DNA from: Bacteroidota bacterium
GTDB lineage: Bacteria > Bacteroidota > Rhodothermia > Rhodothermales > JANQRZ01
NCBI GenBank assembly: GCA_038746285.1
Contig: JBCDKT010000020.1
Span: 1 to 64,000, forward strand
Direction: 5' to 3'
Length of the DNA stretch: 64,000 nt
Below, piece by piece: positions 11,759-57,194 of the stretch. Below the pieces are notes generated by a model. It had not been told where the DNA came from. It did no database searches and saw only the letters and a list, made by a program, of their open reading frames with translations. Made by a program: the position numbers and the translations under genes. The stretch's first letter is position 1. Each line of letters starts with the position of its first letter.

Positions 11759-11770
11759 AGTAGGACAATC

Positions 11771-11798
11771 GTAGGGGCACAGCATGCTGCGCCCCTAC
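11771..11798. repeat. GTAGGGGC/GCCCCTAC palindrome (class H)
   Basis: GTAGGGGC and GCCCCTAC enclose a near-perfect dyad centred on AGCATGCT. It is followed by GCCGTT, the same trailing sequence as at the 25.0 kb copy. It lies between pepA and pdxA. Confidence 0.8.
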
Positions 11799-11803
11799 GC
11801 CGT

Positions 11804-17969: not shown

Positions 17970-17972
17970 CGG

Positions 17973-18063
17973 TTTCTGGTTCTTAGTTTCTAGTTTCTGG
18001 TTCGGCACCGGTGACCAGGTGCGACGAACGAGAAACCAGGAACTCGAAACTAGAAACTGCGAA
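17973..18063. repeat. Heptad palindrome: arms of degenerate 7-bp units (TTTCTAG type)
   Basis: Left units TTTCTGG, TTCTTAG, TTTCTAG and TTTCTGG (17973-18000) are mirrored by CGAGAAA, CCAGGAA, CTCGAAA and CTAGAAA (18029-18056). The central loop has its own small dyad, CACCGGTG. The element begins three bases after the mreB stop and ends a few bases before the mreC start, so it occupies the whole gap. Confidence 0.88.
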
Positions 18064-18068
18064 GCCCC

Positions 18069-18896
18069 ATGCTGAGCCACCTCTGGGCGCGCGCCCGCGA
18101 CTTCGTCCTCCTCGCGGCGCTCCTCATCGTCTCGCTCGTCGTGCTGCTCTCGCAGAACGGGCCGCTGTTCCGCTCGGCGCGGGCGCTCTCGCTCCAGGCG
18201 ACGGCCCCGGTCGAGGGCGGCTTCTCGTGGACCCAGCGCTACACGCGCGCCCTCGAAGAGAACGACGAACTCCGCGAGGACAACATCGACCTCGCCGCCG
18301 AGGTGGCGCGCCTCCGCGAGGCCCGCAGCGAGAACGAGCGGCTCCGCGCCCTGATTGCCTTCCGCGACTCGGTGGACTACAACATGGTCCCGGCCCGCGT
18401 CGTCGGCAAGGACATCACGAAACAGGAGAACCTCCTCACGCTCAACGTCGGCGCGCGCGACAGCGTCGCGGTGGGGATGGCCGTCATCGACGAGCGCGGG
18501 ATCGTCGGCAAGGTGGTCCTCGTCAGCGAGCGCTACAGCCTCGTCATGCCGCACCAGAACACCGACTTCCGCGTCCCGGCCAAGATCGACCTCCTGGGGC
18601 GCGACGGGGTCGTGCTCTGGGACGGAGCCTCCAACGACCGCCTGCTGATGGAGTACGTCGTCAAGACCGAGCCCGTCTTCAAGGGGCAGCTCGTCACGAC
18701 GAGCGGGTTCAGCGGGACCTTCCCGGCCGGCATCCCCGTCGGCGAGGTCGACTCGGTCTACGCCGCGCGCGGCCGCAACGACCTCGTGATCTACCTCCGC
18801 CCGGCCTCGTCGGTCAGCACGGTCGACTACGTCTACGTGCTCCTCGACCAGATCTCGGTCGAGCGCACCGAGCTAGAGGCGACGCCGATCCAGTAG
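18069..18896 (+). CDS. mreC: Rod shape-determining protein MreC
   Basis: The 275-residue protein has one N-terminal membrane anchor (about residues 12-30), a short coiled coil (about 55-95, with LEENDELREDNIDLAAEVARL) and the periplasmic beta-barrel MreC domain, including LTLNVGARDSVAVGMAVIDE, GIVGKVVLVSERYS and QLVTTSGFSGTFPAGIPVG. MreC links MreB filaments to the elongation transpeptidase complex. It follows mreB; the usual next gene mreD is not here but near 42.4 kb. Confidence 0.94.
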   Translation: MLSHLWARARDFVLLAALLIVSLVVLLSQNGPLFRSARALSLQATAPVEGGFSWTQRYTRALEENDELREDNIDLAAEVARLREARSENERLRALIAFRDSVDYNMVPARVVGKDITKQENLLTLNVGARDSVAVGMAVIDERGIVGKVVLVSERYSLVMPHQNTDFRVPAKIDLLGRDGVVLWDGASNDRLLMEYVVKTEPVFKGQLVTTSGFSGTFPAGIPVGEVDSVYAARGRNDLVIYLRPASSVSTVDYVYVLLDQISVERTELEATPIQ

Positions 18897-18941
18897 AGTT
18901 TCCGGTTTCTTATTTCGACCGCTGTGCTTCCGTCTTGACCA

Positions 18942-20477
18942 GTGATGGACTTTCTCTCTTCCGCTCTTCCACTCTTCCGCTCTTCCGTTCTTCCGCTCCT
19001 CCTCGCCGCTACCCTGCCGCTCCTCCAACCGGCGCAGGCGCAGAACTGGCGGGGCCAACTCGACGCGGTCCTCGACGACGAGGTCTTCGACGACGCGCAC
19101 TGGGGCGTCCACGTCCTCGACCTCGCCACCGGGGAGACGCTCTACGCCCGGAACGCCGGCAAGAACTTCGTCCCGGCCTCGGTGACGAAGCTCTTCTCGA
19201 CCGCCGCTGCGCTCGACGGCCTCGGCCCCGACTTCCGCTACTCGACCACGCTCTACCTCGACGGCAGGGTCCGGGACAGCGTCCTCACCGGCCACCTCGT
19301 CGTCCGCGGCTCCGGCGACCCGACGATCAGCGACCGACTTTTCGGAGACGGCTACCCCCGCAGCGGCGACCCGACGGCGCTCTTCCGGTCCTGGGCTGAC
19401 TCGCTGAAGGCGCGCGGCGTCACCTCCGTCTCGGACCACGTCATCGGCGACGACGACGTCTTCGACGACACGGAGCTCGGCAACGGCTGGGCGTGGGACG
19501 ACGTGCCCTCGCGCTTCGCCGCCGAGATCAGCGGTCTCAGCTTCAACGAGGGTCGCGTCACCGTCACCGCCGAGGCCGGGCAGGTCGGCCGCACTGCTGA
19601 CCTCGCGGTCGAGCCCGAGACGGACTACGTCTACTTCATCAACCGCACCGAGACCGTCCCCCGCAGCGAAGGCTCCGACCGCGAGATCCGCCGCGAGCGC
19701 GGCGGCAACGCCTTCTGGGTCGAGTCCGAGGTGGCCGAGGGGCGGACGCTCCGCCACACCGTCTCGGTCCACAACCCGACGCGCTACTTCGCCCACGTCC
19801 TCCGCGAGACGCTCATCGCCGAGGGCGTCTACGTCGACGGCGACCCCGTGGACATCGACGACTGGCGCGACAAGCCGGACTACGCCCGCCTCGTGCCCGT
19901 CGCCACCCACACCTCGCGGCGGCTCGCCGACCTCGCGGCGCTCGTCAACAAGGAGAGCCAGAACCTCGTCGCCGAGCACCTGCTCAAGACGCTCGGCGCG
20001 GTCCGCTGCCCCGCGGAGCGGCCCGAGCAGGTGGAGTGCGGCTCGGTCTGGGCGGGGCTGCTCGCGGCGCGGCTCCTCTTCGAGCAGGCGGGGCTGGAGC
20101 TGGAGACGATGCGGCTGCGCGACGGCTCCGGCATGTCGCCCTACAACGCCGTGGCCCCCGAGGACGTGACGGGGCTGCTCCGTGCGATGTGGATTCACCC
20201 CGACCCGGCCGTGACCGAGGCGTATTTCGACTCGTTCGCGGTGGGTGGCGAGGACGGGACGCTCGCGCGCCGCTTCCGTCAGGGGCAGGCGCGGGGCAAC
20301 GTGCGCGGCAAGACCGGGACGGTGACCGGCGCAAAGAACCTCGCGGGCGTCGTCACGACGGCCGGCGGCACGCCGCTCGCCTTCGCGCTCTTGGCAAACA
20401 ACTTCGGCACGACCCCGTCGCGGGTGACACGCGCCCAGGACGGCATCGTCGAGGTGCTGGCACGGCAGACGTGGTAA
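18942..20477 (+). CDS. dacB: D-alanyl-D-alanine carboxypeptidase/endopeptidase, S13 (PBP4) family
   Basis: The 511-residue exported enzyme trims or cleaves peptidoglycan peptide side chains. The penicillin-binding motifs are SVTK (80-83), SQN in NKESQNLVAEHLLK and KTG in RGKTGTVTGAKNLAG. The PBP4-type inserted domains between the first two motifs are present. The signal peptide is unusual: residues about 6-20 (SSALPLFRSSVLPLL) are encoded by an octamer repeat CTCTTCCG. Cleavage probably follows AQA near residue 33. It follows mreC by 45 bases on the same strand, so it probably belongs to the cell-shape operon. Confidence 0.93.
   Translation: MMDFLSSALPLFRSSVLPLLLAATLPLLQPAQAQNWRGQLDAVLDDEVFDDAHWGVHVLDLATGETLYARNAGKNFVPASVTKLFSTAAALDGLGPDFRYSTTLYLDGRVRDSVLTGHLVVRGSGDPTISDRLFGDGYPRSGDPTALFRSWADSLKARGVTSVSDHVIGDDDVFDDTELGNGWAWDDVPSRFAAEISGLSFNEGRVTVTAEAGQVGRTADLAVEPETDYVYFINRTETVPRSEGSDREIRRERGGNAFWVESEVAEGRTLRHTVSVHNPTRYFAHVLRETLIAEGVYVDGDPVDIDDWRDKPDYARLVPVATHTSRRLADLAALVNKESQNLVAEHLLKTLGAVRCPAERPEQVECGSVWAGLLAARLLFEQAGLELETMRLRDGSGMSPYNAVAPEDVTGLLRAMWIHPDPAVTEAYFDSFAVGGEDGTLARRFRQGQARGNVRGKTGTVTGAKNLAGVVTTAGGTPLAFALLANNFGTTPSRVTRAQDGIVEVLARQTW
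18956..18995. repeat. Five tandem octamers CTCTTCCG within the dacB signal sequence
   Basis: CTCTTCCG, CTCTTCCA, CTCTTCCG, CTCTTCCG and TTCTTCCG run through codons 5-18 of dacB. A related sequence in the opposite sense (AAGAGCGG units) lies at 33250-33281 after radC. Confidence 0.8.
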
Positions 20478-26624: not shown

Positions 26625-27560
26625 ATGCGCTCGGCGTGGGAGGCGCTGCTGGCCCGGAGTCCACAGGCGTCGGTGTTCTCGCACCTCGCGCTCGGCGAGC
26701 ACGTCGGGCGCGCCTTCGGACTGAGGCCGCGCGTAGCAGGCGCGTGGGAGGGCGACGTGCTCCGCGCGGGCGTCCTGCTCTACGAGAAGCGCCGAGGGCC
26801 GTACTGCGCCGCCGCGATCCCGCCGCTCGTGCCGCGCGTCTCGCCGCTTCTCGACCGCCCGCCGCGTGAGGCCGACACTCACTACCGACGCTCGCCGCTC
26901 CAGGCGCTCCTCGGGTGCGTGGCGGAACGCTTTCACCAGGCGAGCCTCGCCGCGCACCCGTCGCTCGTGGACGCGCGCCCGTTCCAGTGGGGCGGGTGGC
27001 ACGTCACGCCCGCCTACACCTACGCGCGCGACCTCCGGCCCGGCGAAGAGGTCACGGCGGCGTGGTCCTCGACCACCCGGCACGCCTGGCAGAACCACCG
27101 CGAGGCGTTCGAGGTCGCCGAGGGCGTGGACGGCCTGGACGAAGTGCTGGCGCTTGTCGAGGCGTCGCACGAGCGGCAGCAGCAGCCGCTCAGCGTGCCG
27201 TCTGCTGCGATGCGAAGCCTCCTGGCCAGACTGGCCGAGTCCGGGCTCGCGCGCCTCTTCGTCGCCCGGCGCGACGGGGACGCCGAGGCGGGCGTCGCCG
27301 TGCTCTCGGACGGGCGGGCGGCACACTACTGGCTTGCCGGCAGCCGGCCCGGACCGGCCATGACCGTCCTCGTCGCCGCCGTCCTGACCCGGCTCCGGGA
27401 CGAGGGCGTAGCGTATTTTGACTTCGCCGGGGCCAACACGCCCTCGATCGCTGAGTTCAAGCGCAAGTTCGGCTGCCGCCTCGTGCCCTACGTCCGCGCC
27501 CGCCGCGTGTCGCGCCCCGAGCTTCGCCTGCTGGACGCCCTCCGCCGGAGGAGTTTCTAG
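26625..27560 (+). CDS. GNAT/FemAB-like acyltransferase (BioF2-like)
   Basis: The 311-residue protein has the FemAB-like GNAT pattern seen in polysaccharide gene clusters: SPQASVFSHLALGEHVGRAFG near the start, TPAYTYARDLRPGEEVTAAW and TRHAWQNHREAFEV centrally, and YFDFAGANTPSIAEFKRKFG at the end, the FKxxFG motif being characteristic. It may acylate or add an amino acid to a cell-surface sugar. The true start may be upstream of ATG 26625, since in-frame sequence before it looks coding (VLNASSPYRTSLHGLDDEAM), but only CTG or ATT codons are available there. Its TAG stop is part of a heptad repeat. Confidence 0.75.
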   Translation: MRSAWEALLARSPQASVFSHLALGEHVGRAFGLRPRVAGAWEGDVLRAGVLLYEKRRGPYCAAAIPPLVPRVSPLLDRPPREADTHYRRSPLQALLGCVAERFHQASLAAHPSLVDARPFQWGGWHVTPAYTYARDLRPGEEVTAAWSSTTRHAWQNHREAFEVAEGVDGLDEVLALVEASHERQQQPLSVPSAAMRSLLARLAESGLARLFVARRDGDAEAGVAVLSDGRAAHYWLAGSRPGPAMTVLVAAVLTRLRDEGVAYFDFAGANTPSIAEFKRKFGCRLVPYVRARRVSRPELRLLDALRRRSF

Positions 27561-27805
27561 TTCCTCGTTTCTCGCCATGCAGGAGCCGCCGACCGTGCTC
27601 GAAGAGAAACTAGAAGCTGAGAGGGCGTTGAGGATTCACCGCGACGGGCTGCGCGTGGTCGCTGAACCCGTCCGCTGCGTTGCGCTCGTCGCCCGATGCG
27701 GGGGCATCTGGCTTCTCGCGCGCCTTGCGGGCCGTCTCCAGCCCCTCACGCTCGCCGTCCTCTCGAAAATCTCAACGCCCTCTAAAAACTGGAAACCAGA
27801 AACGG
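27554..27805. repeat. Heptad palindrome (TTTCTAG type) interrupted by a class B mini-element
   Basis: Left units TTTCTAG, TTCCTCG and TTTCTCG (27554-27574) face AGAAACT and AGAAGCT, then, after the 164-bp class B element, AAAACTG, GAAACCA and GAAACGG. The right arm is thus split by the insertion. Unit sequence is nearly the same as in the palindrome between mreB and mreC. Confidence 0.75.
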
Positions 27806-32516: not shown

Positions 32517-33251
32517 ATGCACGACGTCGTCAACCCCGCCGCTGAGCCGGACATCCAGTACCACCTCCCGATCAACCAGTGGGACGCCGCCGAGCGGCCC
32601 CGCGAGAAGCTCATGGCGCGCGGCGCGGCGGCGCTCTCCGACGCCGAGCTGATCGCGCTCATCTTCGGCAACGGGACGCGGACCAAAGAGGGTAGCTTGT
32701 CGGCGGTCCAGCTCGGGCAGGCGCTGCTCCAGACCTACGGCTCGCTCGCCACGCTGTCGAAGAAAGACCGGAAGCTCTTGCAGCGCGTCGTCGGGATCGG
32801 CCCGGCGAAGGCGGTGCAGCTTATGGCCGCGTTCGAGATCGGCCGGCGCGTCGAGGCGCAGGGCGACGGCGAGCGCGTCCAGGTCTGCTCGCCCGCTGAC
32901 GTGGCGGCAGCCTACGGCCCGAAGCTGCGCGACCTGAAACGCGAGGTCTTCGTCATCGTGCTGCTCAACACGGCCAACGTCATCACCGGCGACTTCACCG
33001 TCTCCGAGGGCGGTCTCGCCGCCAGCATCGTCGAGCCGCGCGCCGTCTTCCAGCGGGCCGTCGTCGAGAACGCTGCGGCTATCGTGTGCCTCCACAACCA
33101 CCCCTCCGGCAACCCCGAGCCGAGCCGGGAAGACGTGCAGATCACGAAGCAGCTCGTCGAGGCCGGCAAGCTGATGGGCATCCCTGTCCACGACCACCTC
33201 ATCATCGCCGGGCGCGGCTACACGTCGCTGGCGGAGCGGGGGCTGATGTAG
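32517..33251 (+). CDS. radC: RadC family JAB/MPN domain protein
   Basis: The 244-residue protein begins with INQWDAAERPREKLMARGAAALSDAELIALIFG, has a helix-hairpin-helix segment (LLQRVVGIGPAKAVQLMAAFEIGRR) and a JAMM metalloenzyme domain with CLHNHPSGNPEPSREDVQIT and LMGIPVHDHLII, giving His, His and Asp ligands. The exact biochemical role of RadC is unsettled; it is not needed for classic recombination repair in E. coli-type tests. I start at ATG 32517; a GTG at 32475 overlapping the previous gene is open but adds non-conserved residues. An octamer repeat begins at its stop codon. Confidence 0.92.
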   Translation: MHDVVNPAAEPDIQYHLPINQWDAAERPREKLMARGAAALSDAELIALIFGNGTRTKEGSLSAVQLGQALLQTYGSLATLSKKDRKLLQRVVGIGPAKAVQLMAAFEIGRRVEAQGDGERVQVCSPADVAAAYGPKLRDLKREVFVIVLLNTANVITGDFTVSEGGLAASIVEPRAVFQRAVVENAAAIVCLHNHPSGNPEPSREDVQITKQLVEAGKLMGIPVHDHLIIAGRGYTSLAERGLM

Positions 33252-33281
33252 GAGCGGAAGAGCGGAGGCGGGGAAGAGCGG
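33250..33281. repeat. Four tandem octamers (AAGAGCGG type) at the radC stop
   Basis: AGGAGCGG, AAGAGCGG, AGGCGGGG and AAGAGCGG follow each other from the last base of the radC stop region. They are the reverse-complement type of the octamers in the dacB signal sequence. No opposing arm is seen here. Confidence 0.65.
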
Positions 33282-33314: not shown

Positions 33315-33710
33315 ATGACTATTGATCGAGTGGAGCAGTTGCGTATCTATCAACGCGCCTTTGAGGCAGCGATGGACGTGTTCGAGTGGTCGAAGCAATG
33401 GCCGCGAGAAGAGCGGTACGCGCTCACAGATCAGGCTCGTCGCTCGTCGCGGGCGGTCTGCGCGAATCTCTCCGAGGCGTGGGCGAAGCGGCGCTACCCG
33501 AAGCACTTCGTCAGCAAACTGAGCGATGCTCACGGCGAGGCCGAGGAAACCCTGACGTGGCTCCGCTTCGCCCACGGATGTGGCTATCTGCTCTCCGACG
33601 CTGCCGAAAAGCTCATCTCACGCTACCGGCAGATCATCGCCGGTCTCGTCCGCATGATGGCCTCACCCGAATCGTGGTGCCTCCCGGATCCAGTGCGCCA
33701 TCAGTCATAG
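33315..33710 (+). CDS. Four-helix bundle protein, S23/IVP family
   Basis: This 131-residue protein matches the four-helix bundle family first noted in 23S rRNA intervening sequences: LRIYQRAFEAAMDVFEWSKQWPREERYALTDQARRSSRAVCANLSEAWAKR-like order of motifs, with RRSSRAVCANLSEAW as the hallmark, then KLSDAHGEAEETLTWLRFA and a final helix (LISRYRQIIAGLVRMM). Here it is a free-standing chromosomal gene, as is common in Bacteroidota relatives. Function is unknown. ATG 33315 is chosen over a GTG 12 bases upstream. Its 3' end overlaps the convergent immunity-like gene by ten bases. Confidence 0.85.
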   Translation: MTIDRVEQLRIYQRAFEAAMDVFEWSKQWPREERYALTDQARRSSRAVCANLSEAWAKRRYPKHFVSKLSDAHGEAEETLTWLRFAHGCGYLLSDAAEKLISRYRQIIAGLVRMMASPESWCLPDPVRHQS

Positions 33711-39807: not shown

Positions 39808-39838
39808 CGGTCAGAGGGAAGCGGTCGGGGTAGTCGAG

Positions 39839-39846
39839 CGAAGGTA
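39839..39846 (-). promoter_or_regulatory. Candidate -7 box (TACCTTCG) of etfB
   Basis: TACCTTCG on the minus strand, 32 nt upstream of the etfB start; part of the recurrent TAnCTT pattern. Confidence 0.42.
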
Positions 39847-39922
39847 CCGCCCCTCCGGAGGGTCGTCTGTCGAAATCTAGGTCAACTGCTACGTGCTGCG
39901 ACAAGCTCACGTTGACAGGTAG

Positions 39923-40011
39923 GTCATCCTGAACGTGGTTCAGACCGCGCAGCAGCGGCGCAGCCCATCTCCAAGCCTTGCCTTAGATCCCGGATCGGGG
40001 TCCGGGATGAC
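39923..40011. repeat. Intergenic repeat with GTCATCC/GGATGAC ends
   Basis: The 89-bp segment starts GTCATCCTGAACGTGGTTCAG and ends in a strong dyad, CCCGGATCGGGGTCCGGGATGAC in two overlapping blocks. Its right end resembles the palindrome inside the methyltransferase gene at 10.36 kb. It lies in the 567-bp non-coding stretch between etfB and the small protein at 40.4 kb; apart from this repeat, the etfB promoter and the hairpins at 40153-40201, I see nothing recognisable there. Confidence 0.6.
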
Positions 40012-40152
40012 AAAGAAGAAAGCCTGTCCGTCTCAACGTGCCAGAGGACCAAGAGACTGTTTGGATTCAGAGCGCGTAGGCGAGAGCGAGCGCGGCGCGG
40101 AGCCTGCAGGGCGTCCGAATGCGCAGCATCGAGGAGCGCAGCGACTCCACCA

Positions 40153-40201
40153 GCCGATGCACCGCATCGGCGATGCGGCACAACGCCGAAGGCGTCGTGC
40201 C
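40153..40201. other. Two adjacent perfect hairpins in a long intergenic region
   Basis: GCCGATGC-ACC-GCATCGGC (40153-40171) is followed by a second stem made of GGCAC and ACGCC pairing with GGCGT and GTGCC around a GAA loop (40177-40201), with one A-C bulge pair. This could be a small structured RNA or a repeat end. The minus strand of this region is open but the translation resembles nothing I know. Confidence 0.45.
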
Positions 40202-40374
40202 ACGCCGTTGGCAGCCGGTCACGTTCGGTTCGAATACAGGCTCTGAGACACATGTTCGCACAACGAGGCGTGCACCGGCATGGTTAGTTGGTAGTTGACG
40301 AAGTGTGACCGTATTATAGTTCAGCATCGTGCAGGCAGATGGGTTGTTATTCTGCACATCCTAATCACTACTAA

Positions 40375-40767
40375 GTGGGGCTCTTTGTGGGATATTCCGT
40401 TGCAATACAGAAGGGAGAAAGGCTCGCCGTGGTCGAGCTCCGGGACGAAGTGCGCGGCAGGGACATTGTGGAGGCGGCCCAGGGGCTCCTCCAAGACGCG
40501 CGGTGGGACCGGCAGTTCGACGTGATCTGGGACGGGCGGCTGATCAGGTCGCTCATTCTCGAGCCCGAAGACTTGATGGCGATGGTGAACGCTAAAGCGG
40601 CGGCCAGCAGCGGAGTCGAGGTGACGATCGCCGTGCGCCCGCTCGACCGTGAGATGGCGAAGCTGTGCGCGCTGCTGCTGCGCGGGCGCGGGCGCGTAGC
40701 CCGGGTGGTCAGCACGCTCGAAGAGGCGCTTGCCGCACGGCGCGCTGGAGTGCTGGTGGACTCGTAG
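40375..40767 (+). CDS. Hypothetical small protein (STAS/SpoIIAA-like appearance)
   Basis: The ~130-residue product is not firmly recognised. It begins SVAIQKGERLAVVELRDEVRGRDIVEAAQ, has FDVIWDGRLIRSLILEPEDL and IAVRPLDREMAKLCALLLR, and ends VVSTLEEALAARRAGVL. The strand-helix alternation and the 'eggshell' length resemble SpoIIAA/STAS-like proteins that occur singly in this group of bacteria. No ATG is available; GTG 40375 is used and GTG 40390 is possible. It converges with the outer membrane protein gene 11 bases downstream. Confidence 0.55.
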   Translation: MGLFVGYSVAIQKGERLAVVELRDEVRGRDIVEAAQGLLQDARWDRQFDVIWDGRLIRSLILEPEDLMAMVNAKAAASSGVEVTIAVRPLDREMAKLCALLLRGRGRVARVVSTLEEALAARRAGVLVDS

Positions 40768-44923: not shown

Positions 44924-44942
44924 GGATGCGGGTGAAGTGAAC

Positions 44943-44966
44943 GTAGGGGCGCAGCATGCTGCGCCC
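44943..44966. repeat. Truncated class H palindrome between dapA and dapD
   Basis: GTAGGGGCGCAGCATGCT is followed by GCGCCC and then directly by the dapA stop codon (read on the minus strand), so the right arm lacks the last bases (CTAC) found in other copies. Confidence 0.7.
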
Positions 44967-45869: not shown

Positions 45870-45881
45870 GACGGCGCAGAG

Positions 45882-46054
45882 GGAATGGAGGGAATGGAGG
45901 GAATGGAGGGAATGGAGGGAATGGAGGGAATGGAGGGAATGGAGGGAATGGAGGGAATGGAGGGAATGGAAATAAGAGCCGAGAAAGGTACCGAGGCCGC
46001 CGCGCTCTGCGCCAACGCTCTCGTCCCTCCTCGCTCTCCCCACTCTCCACGCCG
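45882..46054. repeat. Class A element with a 9-bp array, between dapB and dapA
   Basis: About ten copies of GGAATGGAG (45882-45970) are followed by the core GCCGAGAAAGGTACCGAG and CGCGCTCTGCGCC, and by CTCTCCACGCCG at the end. The core and right end closely match the copy at 57.1 kb. On the minus strand, the core contains TACCTTTC (45983-45990), about 114 nt upstream of dapA. Confidence 0.88.
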
Positions 46055-46056
46055 GA

Positions 46057-49370: not shown

Positions 49371-49450
49371 GGCACCCCGTGTCTACGGCACCCCGTGTCT
49401 ACGGCACCCCGTGTCTACGGCACCCCGTGTCTACGGCACCCCGTGTCTGC
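49371..49450. repeat. Five tandem copies of a 16-bp unit
   Basis: GGCACCCCGTGTCTAC is repeated five times (last copy with one change), between the thrA promoter and the tRNA-Ala promoter. No spacers separate the units, so this is not a CRISPR. It may bind a regulator several times or be a neutral minisatellite. Confidence 0.9.
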
Positions 49451-49478
49451 GGCCCTCTGGGTCTTCGCCCGGTCTCCA

Positions 49479-49536: not shown

Positions 49537-49609
49537 GGGGCTATAGCTCAGTTGGTAGAGCGCTGCAATGGCATTGCAGAGGTCAGGAGTTCGAATCTCC
49601 TTAGCTCCA
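49537..49609 (+). tRNA. tRNA-Ala (anticodon GGC)
   Basis: The cloverleaf is complete: acceptor GGGGCTA pairing with TAGCTCC (one G-U), D-arm AGCTCAGTTGGTAGAGC, anticodon stem CTGCA/TGCAG with loop ATGGCAT (anticodon GGC, reading GCC and GCU), and T-arm AGGAG-TTCGAAT-CTCCT. The discriminator is A; the CCA end is not encoded. A strong promoter and a terminator flank it, so it is a single-gene unit. Confidence 0.97.
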
Positions 49610-57090: not shown

Positions 57091-57194
57091 GAGGGAATGG
57101 AGGGAATGGAAATGAAAGCCGAGAAAGGTACCGACCCCGCCGCGCTCTGCGCCGACGCTCTCGTCTCTCCTCGCTTTCCCCGCCCTCCACGCCG
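57091..57194. repeat. Class A element with two 9-bp units, upstream of gyrA
   Basis: Two GGAATGGAG-type units precede GAAAGCCGAGAAAGGTACCG, CGCGCTCTGCGCC and the end CCCTCCACGCCG. It is nearly the same as the 45.9 kb copy apart from array length, so array copy number varies between copies. Confidence 0.88.

Follow-up and report, generated by a model that had tools for sequence, protein, structure and literature searches.

How does a short tandem repeat come to encode the beginning of an exported cell-wall enzyme, and does it act there as a switch or as one copy of something more general? The question is raised by dacB, a D-Ala-D-Ala carboxypeptidase gene of the S13 (PBP4) family located at 18945..20477 (+) in a stretch of 64,000 nucleotides (contig JBCDKT010000020.1, positions 1 to 64,000, from a Rhodothermales member of the Bacteroidota), which we call the window and whose first codons contain an array of 8-bp units. 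A preliminary description, made from the letters of the window, had presented this array as part of the hydrophobic export signal and as a possible slippage switch. In our opinion, it is probably a member of a dispersed, lineage-specific class of tandem repeats that have short units and build up at the edges of genes, tolerated in dacB as a working n-region and early h-region of the signal peptide. In other words, it resembles a genome-wide repeat settling at gene boundaries more than a dedicated on/off switch.

An octamer array within the dacB reading frame

The assignment of dacB relies on our own gene call and on the match of its product (P0001) to PF02113 over residues 38-508 (E 2.2e-90). 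The gene starts at ATG 18945, with an alternative GTG at 18942 in the identical frame and an in-frame TGA two codons 5' of that GTG. The array begins 11 nt 3' of the ATG and extends over 18956..19002 (+), where Tandem Repeats Finder (TRF) reports a period of 8, 5.9 copies of CTCTTCCG and an 87% match over 47 bp, and where our unit scan gives a score of 38. Its units are, in order, CTCTTCCG CTCTTCCA CTCTTCCG CTCTTCCG TTCTTCCG CTCCTCC, the second, fifth and sixth carrying single changes, and the longest perfect period-8 stretch is limited to 16 bp (two units; 18972..18987, +). In translation this corresponds approximately to residues 4-20 of the DacB preprotein (MDFLSSALPLFRSSVLPLLLAATLPLLQPAQA|Q), and the array peptide noted earlier, SSALPLFRSSVLP, to residues 5-17, which places the array inside both the coding sequence and the signal peptide, as had been described. 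A start codon downstream of the repeat, named beforehand as the finding that would speak against a translated array, was looked for: the next in-frame ATG, GTG or TTG is the GTG at 19182, already within the conserved mature domain, with only a CTG (19014) before it. The array is therefore translated if dacB makes its conserved N-terminus.

Is the array simply a consequence of a leucine-rich protein sequence? Its period-8 run score of 24 was reached by none of 20,000 codon-order shuffles and by none of 20,000 same-protein resamplings with the codon usage of the genome, so it is not due to chance. Among the 285 genes called in a 464-kb sample of the genome, only dacB and one other (score 26) exceed a period-8 score of 7 in their first 78 nt. 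Furthermore, the 16-mer made of two units occurs 10 times in the window with up to three mismatches, compared with 1.83 times expected. The preliminary description had also pointed to the same unit in reverse sense behind radC; it is indeed present there, in a weak form (33252..33281, minus strand; 3.8 copies, 72% match, unit-scan score 21), immediately preceded by the radC stop codon (33249-33251). Directly behind this second array, at 33315-33710 (+), lies a gene for a 23S_rRNA_IVP four-helix-bundle protein (PF05635, E 8.7e-28), and a similar reading frame is found at the same place in a congener, i.e., the genome of another species of the same genus.

Anatomy of the DacB signal peptide

The DacB preprotein starts with MDFLSSALPLFRSSVLPLLLAATLPLLQPAQAQNW, whereas its counterparts in the congener (MTKRVVGICLLLLFVLPTLGPVQAQD) and in a genome of the same family (MTRTALLLVLGFVWLAGPARAQS) have ordinary signal peptides without the array. 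When aligned by eye, the last 16 residues of the DacB leader, through the post-cleavage Gln, match those of the congener (LLLLFVLPTLGPVQA), with the array in front of them. On this alignment and on hydropathy, the rest of the signal peptide (LLLAATLPLLQPAQA; 18996..19040, +) appears to be native and to end in an AXA-type cleavage site before the Gln, a motif that we take to be the recognised one. The leader may be a Sec-type signal: its sequence shows one Arg, encoded by the array, a hydrophobic stretch, and AQA|Q five residues before the Pfam domain. However, the earlier view that the array forms part of the hydrophobic signal applies in a restricted sense, since the ten-residue segment of highest hydrophobicity (VLPLLLAATL) lies partly inside the array and partly beyond its end, and hydropathy peaks at 1.25 in the peptide encoded by the array alone, compared with 2.41 in the sequence that follows. 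The array would thus supply the front of the signal peptide, including its only Arg, and be followed by a native-looking core and the AXA site.

An octamer family dispersed at gene edges

Are there other copies? The two-unit 16-mer was searched, with its reversed sequence as control, in the own genome, the congener, the same-family genome and 37 other genomes of the order, with one genome representing each species. Allowing one mismatch, the own genome contains 66 matches (control 0) and the same-family genome 37 (control 1), compared with two in the congener (control 2) and eight in total across the 37 others; with up to two mismatches, the figures are 211 against 34. The same-family genome even has runs of up to 17 overlapping exact matches, at contig ends. 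Single octamers outside arrays are not over-represented (28 in a 400-kb sample, where 33.7 would be expected), which makes the octamer unlike an uptake sequence.

Collecting the arrays from every own-genome locus of the one-mismatch search yielded 39: 23 lie between genes, and 16 overlap one called by our own simple gene caller. Among the latter, four lie at 5' ends in the CTCTTCCG sense, seven at 3' ends in the GAGCGGAA sense, encoding charged tails such as AEERKSGRAEE, and five are interior (in FtsK, a chromate transporter, a two-domain oxidoreductase and a membrane protein that contains both arms of a pair). The orientation follows a rule: among the 30 arrays no farther than 30 nt from the edge of a gene, 28 present the pyrimidine-rich sense at starts and the purine-rich sense at stops, with two exceptions (sign test, 4e-7), and the remaining nine comprise four farther away and the five interior ones. 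An inverted partner within 120 bp accompanies 18 of the 39 arrays, and in all 18 pairs the purine arm comes first. Hairpin strength is uneven among the copies, reaching z values of -2.01 to -3.97 at four loci (L078, L156, L161 and L167). The unit is free of stop codons in all six frames, reading (LFRSSALP)n in every frame of one sense and (RKSGRAEE)n in every frame of the other, and arrays can consequently spread over a gene edge with little penalty. A clean in-frame insertion of an octamer pair, considered for two loci (L078 and L072), could not be shown; the orthologues have variable charged linkers at those places.

Relatives of dacB and arrays of other units

Matches to dacB were found in 38 other genomes, and among the 29 relatives inspected none has an octamer array near the start of the gene (best score 8, against 38 in dacB); the orthologues align from residues 17-30 onward. 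The gap that precedes dacB in the congener has a different palindrome, in whose end the ATG of the gene lies, and this palindrome does not appear to be a dispersed element, as a single copy was found in three genomes (38-bp pattern, up to three mismatches). In the window, neither a purine arm nor, by hidden Markov model (HMM) scan, the promoter-like core described below was found in the mreC-dacB gap (18897..18944, +), the mreC stop ending at 18896.

The octamer is not the only short unit found in such places. TRF was run on 464 kb of the own genome (window included) and on 400 kb each of the congener and the same-family genome, where it detected 20, eight and nine arrays, respectively, with periods of 6-10 and at least three copies. 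Across the three samples, the six arrays of period 7-8 that lie mainly within a called gene are all at the start or the stop of that gene, and the own-genome members among them are dacB, L101 and L105. In L101 (3377-4081), an ABC-transporter ATPase gene, the first codons consist of 4.6 copies of CTCTCGCC (96% match) located 8 nt after the called GTG start, i.e., another unit in the same kind of place as in dacB. Heptamer arrays of the GTTTCTA/GTTTCTC type occur in the window at 17972-18063 and 27550-27578, with an inverted pair before mreC; at both matching gaps the congener shows a comparable inverted pair of heptamers with a variant unit.

What best explains the dacB array?

A stop-free unit would let an array extend into the first codons of a gene as a mildly hydrophobic stretch without ending translation, and likewise into last codons or linkers as a charged tail. 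At dacB, the array may have lengthened the signal peptide at its front or taken the place of that front (approximately residues 4-20), leaving the native core and the cleavage site in place, and most likely acts as a tolerated n-region and early h-region with which DacB would still be exported. Spread of the family would then be a neutral process of copying and slippage. Several observations, nonetheless, weigh against this explanation. The dacB array has no inverted partner and forms no hairpin on folding (z -0.26), and many other copies have one. The polarity was counted at edges set by our gene caller instead of a curated annotation, and array-free flanks already show a milder polarity of their own (purine fraction 0.367 before starts and 0.516 after stops), which means that the edge rule is partly general composition. 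As for the engine of the spread, a REP-type Y1 transposase was considered and set aside: searching turned up a single one, in the same-family genome, and neither the own genome nor the congener had any. Nor did a donor copy, a target-site duplication or a copying enzyme come to light. Finally, the signal-peptide DNA of the congener dacB contains CTTACTCCTTCTCTTCGTGCTTCCGACGCTC and is rich in CTT, CTC and TTC, which makes growth in place from native codons a live alternative.

Under that alternative, the array arose by local slippage in Leu- and pyrimidine-rich codons and resembles the dispersed octamer by convergence. The congener CTTACTCCTTCTCTTCGTGCTTCCGACGCTC is in line with it, as are the arrays of other units at the equivalent place of other genes, such as the CTCTCGCC of L101. 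Nevertheless, we consider it improbable: convergence fails to explain why the unit is precisely that of the most repeated octamer array of the genome (66 matches, none in the control), and the same-protein resamplings never reached the dacB score.

The second alternative is the one put forward in the preliminary description, namely a contingency locus in which slippage by 8 bp turns dacB alternately on and off, in the manner of the CTCTT repeats in the leaders of Neisseria opa genes. Its frame logic is sound: the unit is not divisible by three, it lies just after the start, and one unit lost or gained leads to a stop after 148 or 82 codons. The parallel is also attractive, as the coding CTCTT repeats of the opa leader peptides are known to vary and to switch surface proteins, at about 1e-3 per cell per generation in the account cited here (PMC3960869), and simple repeats are generally over-represented close to the termini of genes, N-termini above all, an enrichment that Lin and Kussell (as cited in PMC4692102) read as a sign of phase variation. 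However, the array is interrupted and its perfect run spans 16 bp, so fast slippage is not expected, the octamer family is genome-wide and mostly intergenic, and the dacB relatives inspected lack the array altogether. Moreover, DacB is a cell-wall enzyme, untypical as a contingency gene. A switch is a doubtful proposition overall.

A third possibility, that the true start of dacB is downstream and the array an untranslated leader, would fit the many such arrays found between the promoter side and the start codon, but it is very hard to reconcile with the position of GTG 19182 inside the mature domain and with orthologues that align from well before it. An assembly or adapter artefact is the least credible of all: the unit presumably resembles part of a common sequencing adapter and long arrays do break contigs (two 17-copy-class arrays of the same-family genome are at contig ends), but the 47-bp array lies within a 65.8-kb contig, in a sensible open frame, and the unit recurs in an independent genome.

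With the octamer array of dacB read as a dispersed gene-edge repeat, what is gained? Short-unit arrays at gene edges are known in a few lineages, and the class is now seen in Rhodothermales relatives. Its unit, stop-free in all frames and encoding hydrophobic residues when read one way and a charged tail when read the opposite way, makes the seeding of new signal peptides and protein tails by repeats a testable question, and its spread to dozens of loci in one species, with nearly none in a congener, can be studied.

Inverted arrays as possible templates for signal peptides

Besides that of dacB, three octamer arrays are located at signal-peptide-like 5' ends, one in L073 (MLFRSFALSLFLALPAAQAQ) and two in genes of L077, and in all three the array is preceded by a purine-rich stretch that could be translated as a charged n-region. 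The L073 gene (2308-3999) has orthologues in the congener (L176, 79% identity) and in the same-family genome (L177, 64%), which share the purine-then-pyrimidine anatomy but are built from other units, RRARGAREEGRDRRESRFLLYLFPLFPLFYLFSVAQAQ and KGDERKRGRAEAGNNRGGGRDEGLPLFHTSALPLLALLALLALSTPARAQ; all three family members thus show the anatomy, each with a unit of its own (L073:2227-2352; L176:3106-3231, minus; L177:1387-1512). In L176 and L177, the only start before the cleavage site is a GTG or ATG overlapping the upstream stop, so that the whole stretch must be translated. Folding is supported in these two (z -2.31 and -2.13), but only weakly in L073 (z -0.74, with 53 of 200 shuffles folding as well), whose arms are accordingly related by composition more than by strict pairing. 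The arrangement was not apparent by eye in nine further relatives of the L073 gene from other families of the order, and relatives of the L077 TPR-repeat gene have ordinary leaders without octamers. We tentatively propose, as an idea with somewhat less than even chances, that this family uses inverted start arrays as templates for signal peptides (the purine arm as charged n-region, the pyrimidine arm as hydrophobic core), with lineages rewriting the unit genome-wide and keeping the anatomy, and that dacB is a half-version with the pyrimidine arm.

A promoter-like core and other repeats in the window

Another repeat may turn out to be weightier than the dacB array, a module in which a 32-base core, TTGGCGCRGAGCGCGNCGGYCTCGGTANNTTT, is coupled to tandem arrays. 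The core, which we assume to be promoter-like from its resemblance to Bacteroidota promoters (TTG and TAnnTTTG), has 47 copies in the own genome with up to three mismatches (reversed control 0) and none at that threshold in the congener or the same-family genome; scanning 400 kb of the same-family genome with a profile of the core brings up weak relatives. Each of the 20 copies that differ by no more than two mismatches has a tandem array behind it, of period 7-9 and with a locus-specific unit, a count made without a random-position control; the array begins 14-18 nt after the core in 19 of the 20, and in ten there is also one upstream. The HMM scan of the window located copies at 98-143, 45971-46015 and 57111-57155, all on the minus strand. 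Around the second (45870-46056), the gap between the same two genes is short in the congener and has no core-array module.

Other repeats lie elsewhere in the window. A short palindrome, GTAGGGGCGCAGCATGCTGCGCCCCTAC, occupies 11759-11803 and 44924-44966 and occurs in many gaps of the own-genome sample (15-19 matches listed per copy), and part of the gap at 39808-40428 (CAGGTAGGTCATCCTGAAC ... GGATCGGGGTCCGGGATGACAAAG) recurs in other gaps of that sample (seven matches). A tandem array with a 16-bp unit (49371-49453; 5.2 copies, 98% match) lies upstream of a tRNA (49537-49609), and a tRNA was the only known RNA family in the window at the gathering threshold.

Comparison with known repeat systems

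Our literature search, which covered open-licence papers, found none on the octamer CTCTTCCG or on tandem repeats of Salinibacter or Rhodothermus, and the octamer is best understood by comparison with systems from other bacteria. As regards placement in a leader peptide, the best parallel is the opa repeat, likewise containing CTCTT, lying in the leader-coding region and having a unit that is not divisible by three; unlike it, as far as the cited account goes (PMC3960869), the dacB array is interrupted, belongs to a cell-wall enzyme and is one of a dispersed family. The long uninterrupted tract of the opa type is not found in dacB.

Further known repeats share some features with the dacB array. 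The TAACTGA heptamers of Beggiatoaceae, cyanobacteria and some Bacteroidetes, whose mechanism of spread is described as not known, have another unit, are rarely inverted and are given no role in signal peptides in the sections cited (PMC4679880). BrickBuilt of Porphyromonas gingivalis, a minisatellite with a 23-nt unit within a miniature inverted-repeat transposable element (MITE), always intergenic according to the excerpt used (PMC4596501), is similar in that it is dispersed, contains tandem units and acts as a promoter between genes. In this respect it is nearer to the 32-base promoter-like cassette than to the dacB array, which belongs neither to a MITE nor to such a cassette, the HMM scan having found cores elsewhere in the window and none at dacB. 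PARCELs (PMC2996958) and the coding palindromes of Nematomorpha mitochondria (PMC6649704) are translated into protein like the dacB array; as described in the portions consulted, however, the former are 25-residue repeat domains and the latter long perfect palindromes in conserved protein regions, and neither are short-unit arrays making signal peptides.

The octamer is closest to the GGGNATC heptamers of Xanthomonas and Nostoc, which in the parts of the report cited here are dispersed, mostly intergenic, and often paired in convergent, inverted orientation (one strain has 70 of its 186 repeats so arranged), with the G-rich sense just after stops and the antisense just before starts (PMC4692102). 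The octamer likewise forms many dispersed, mostly intergenic arrays (23/39), and it shares the strand rule (28/30 edge arrays) and the convergent pairs (18/39 arrays), the dacB copy being without a partner. The authors of that study regarded phase variation as unlikely and found no link to mobile elements. In contrast to the octamer, with its 8 nt and only GG, the heptamer unit has 7 nt and runs of at least three G that form quadruplexes, and near absence from the congener is a further difference. As GAGCGGAA contains no GGG, the octamer works like the GGGNATC family and is not classed as a GGGNATC repeat.
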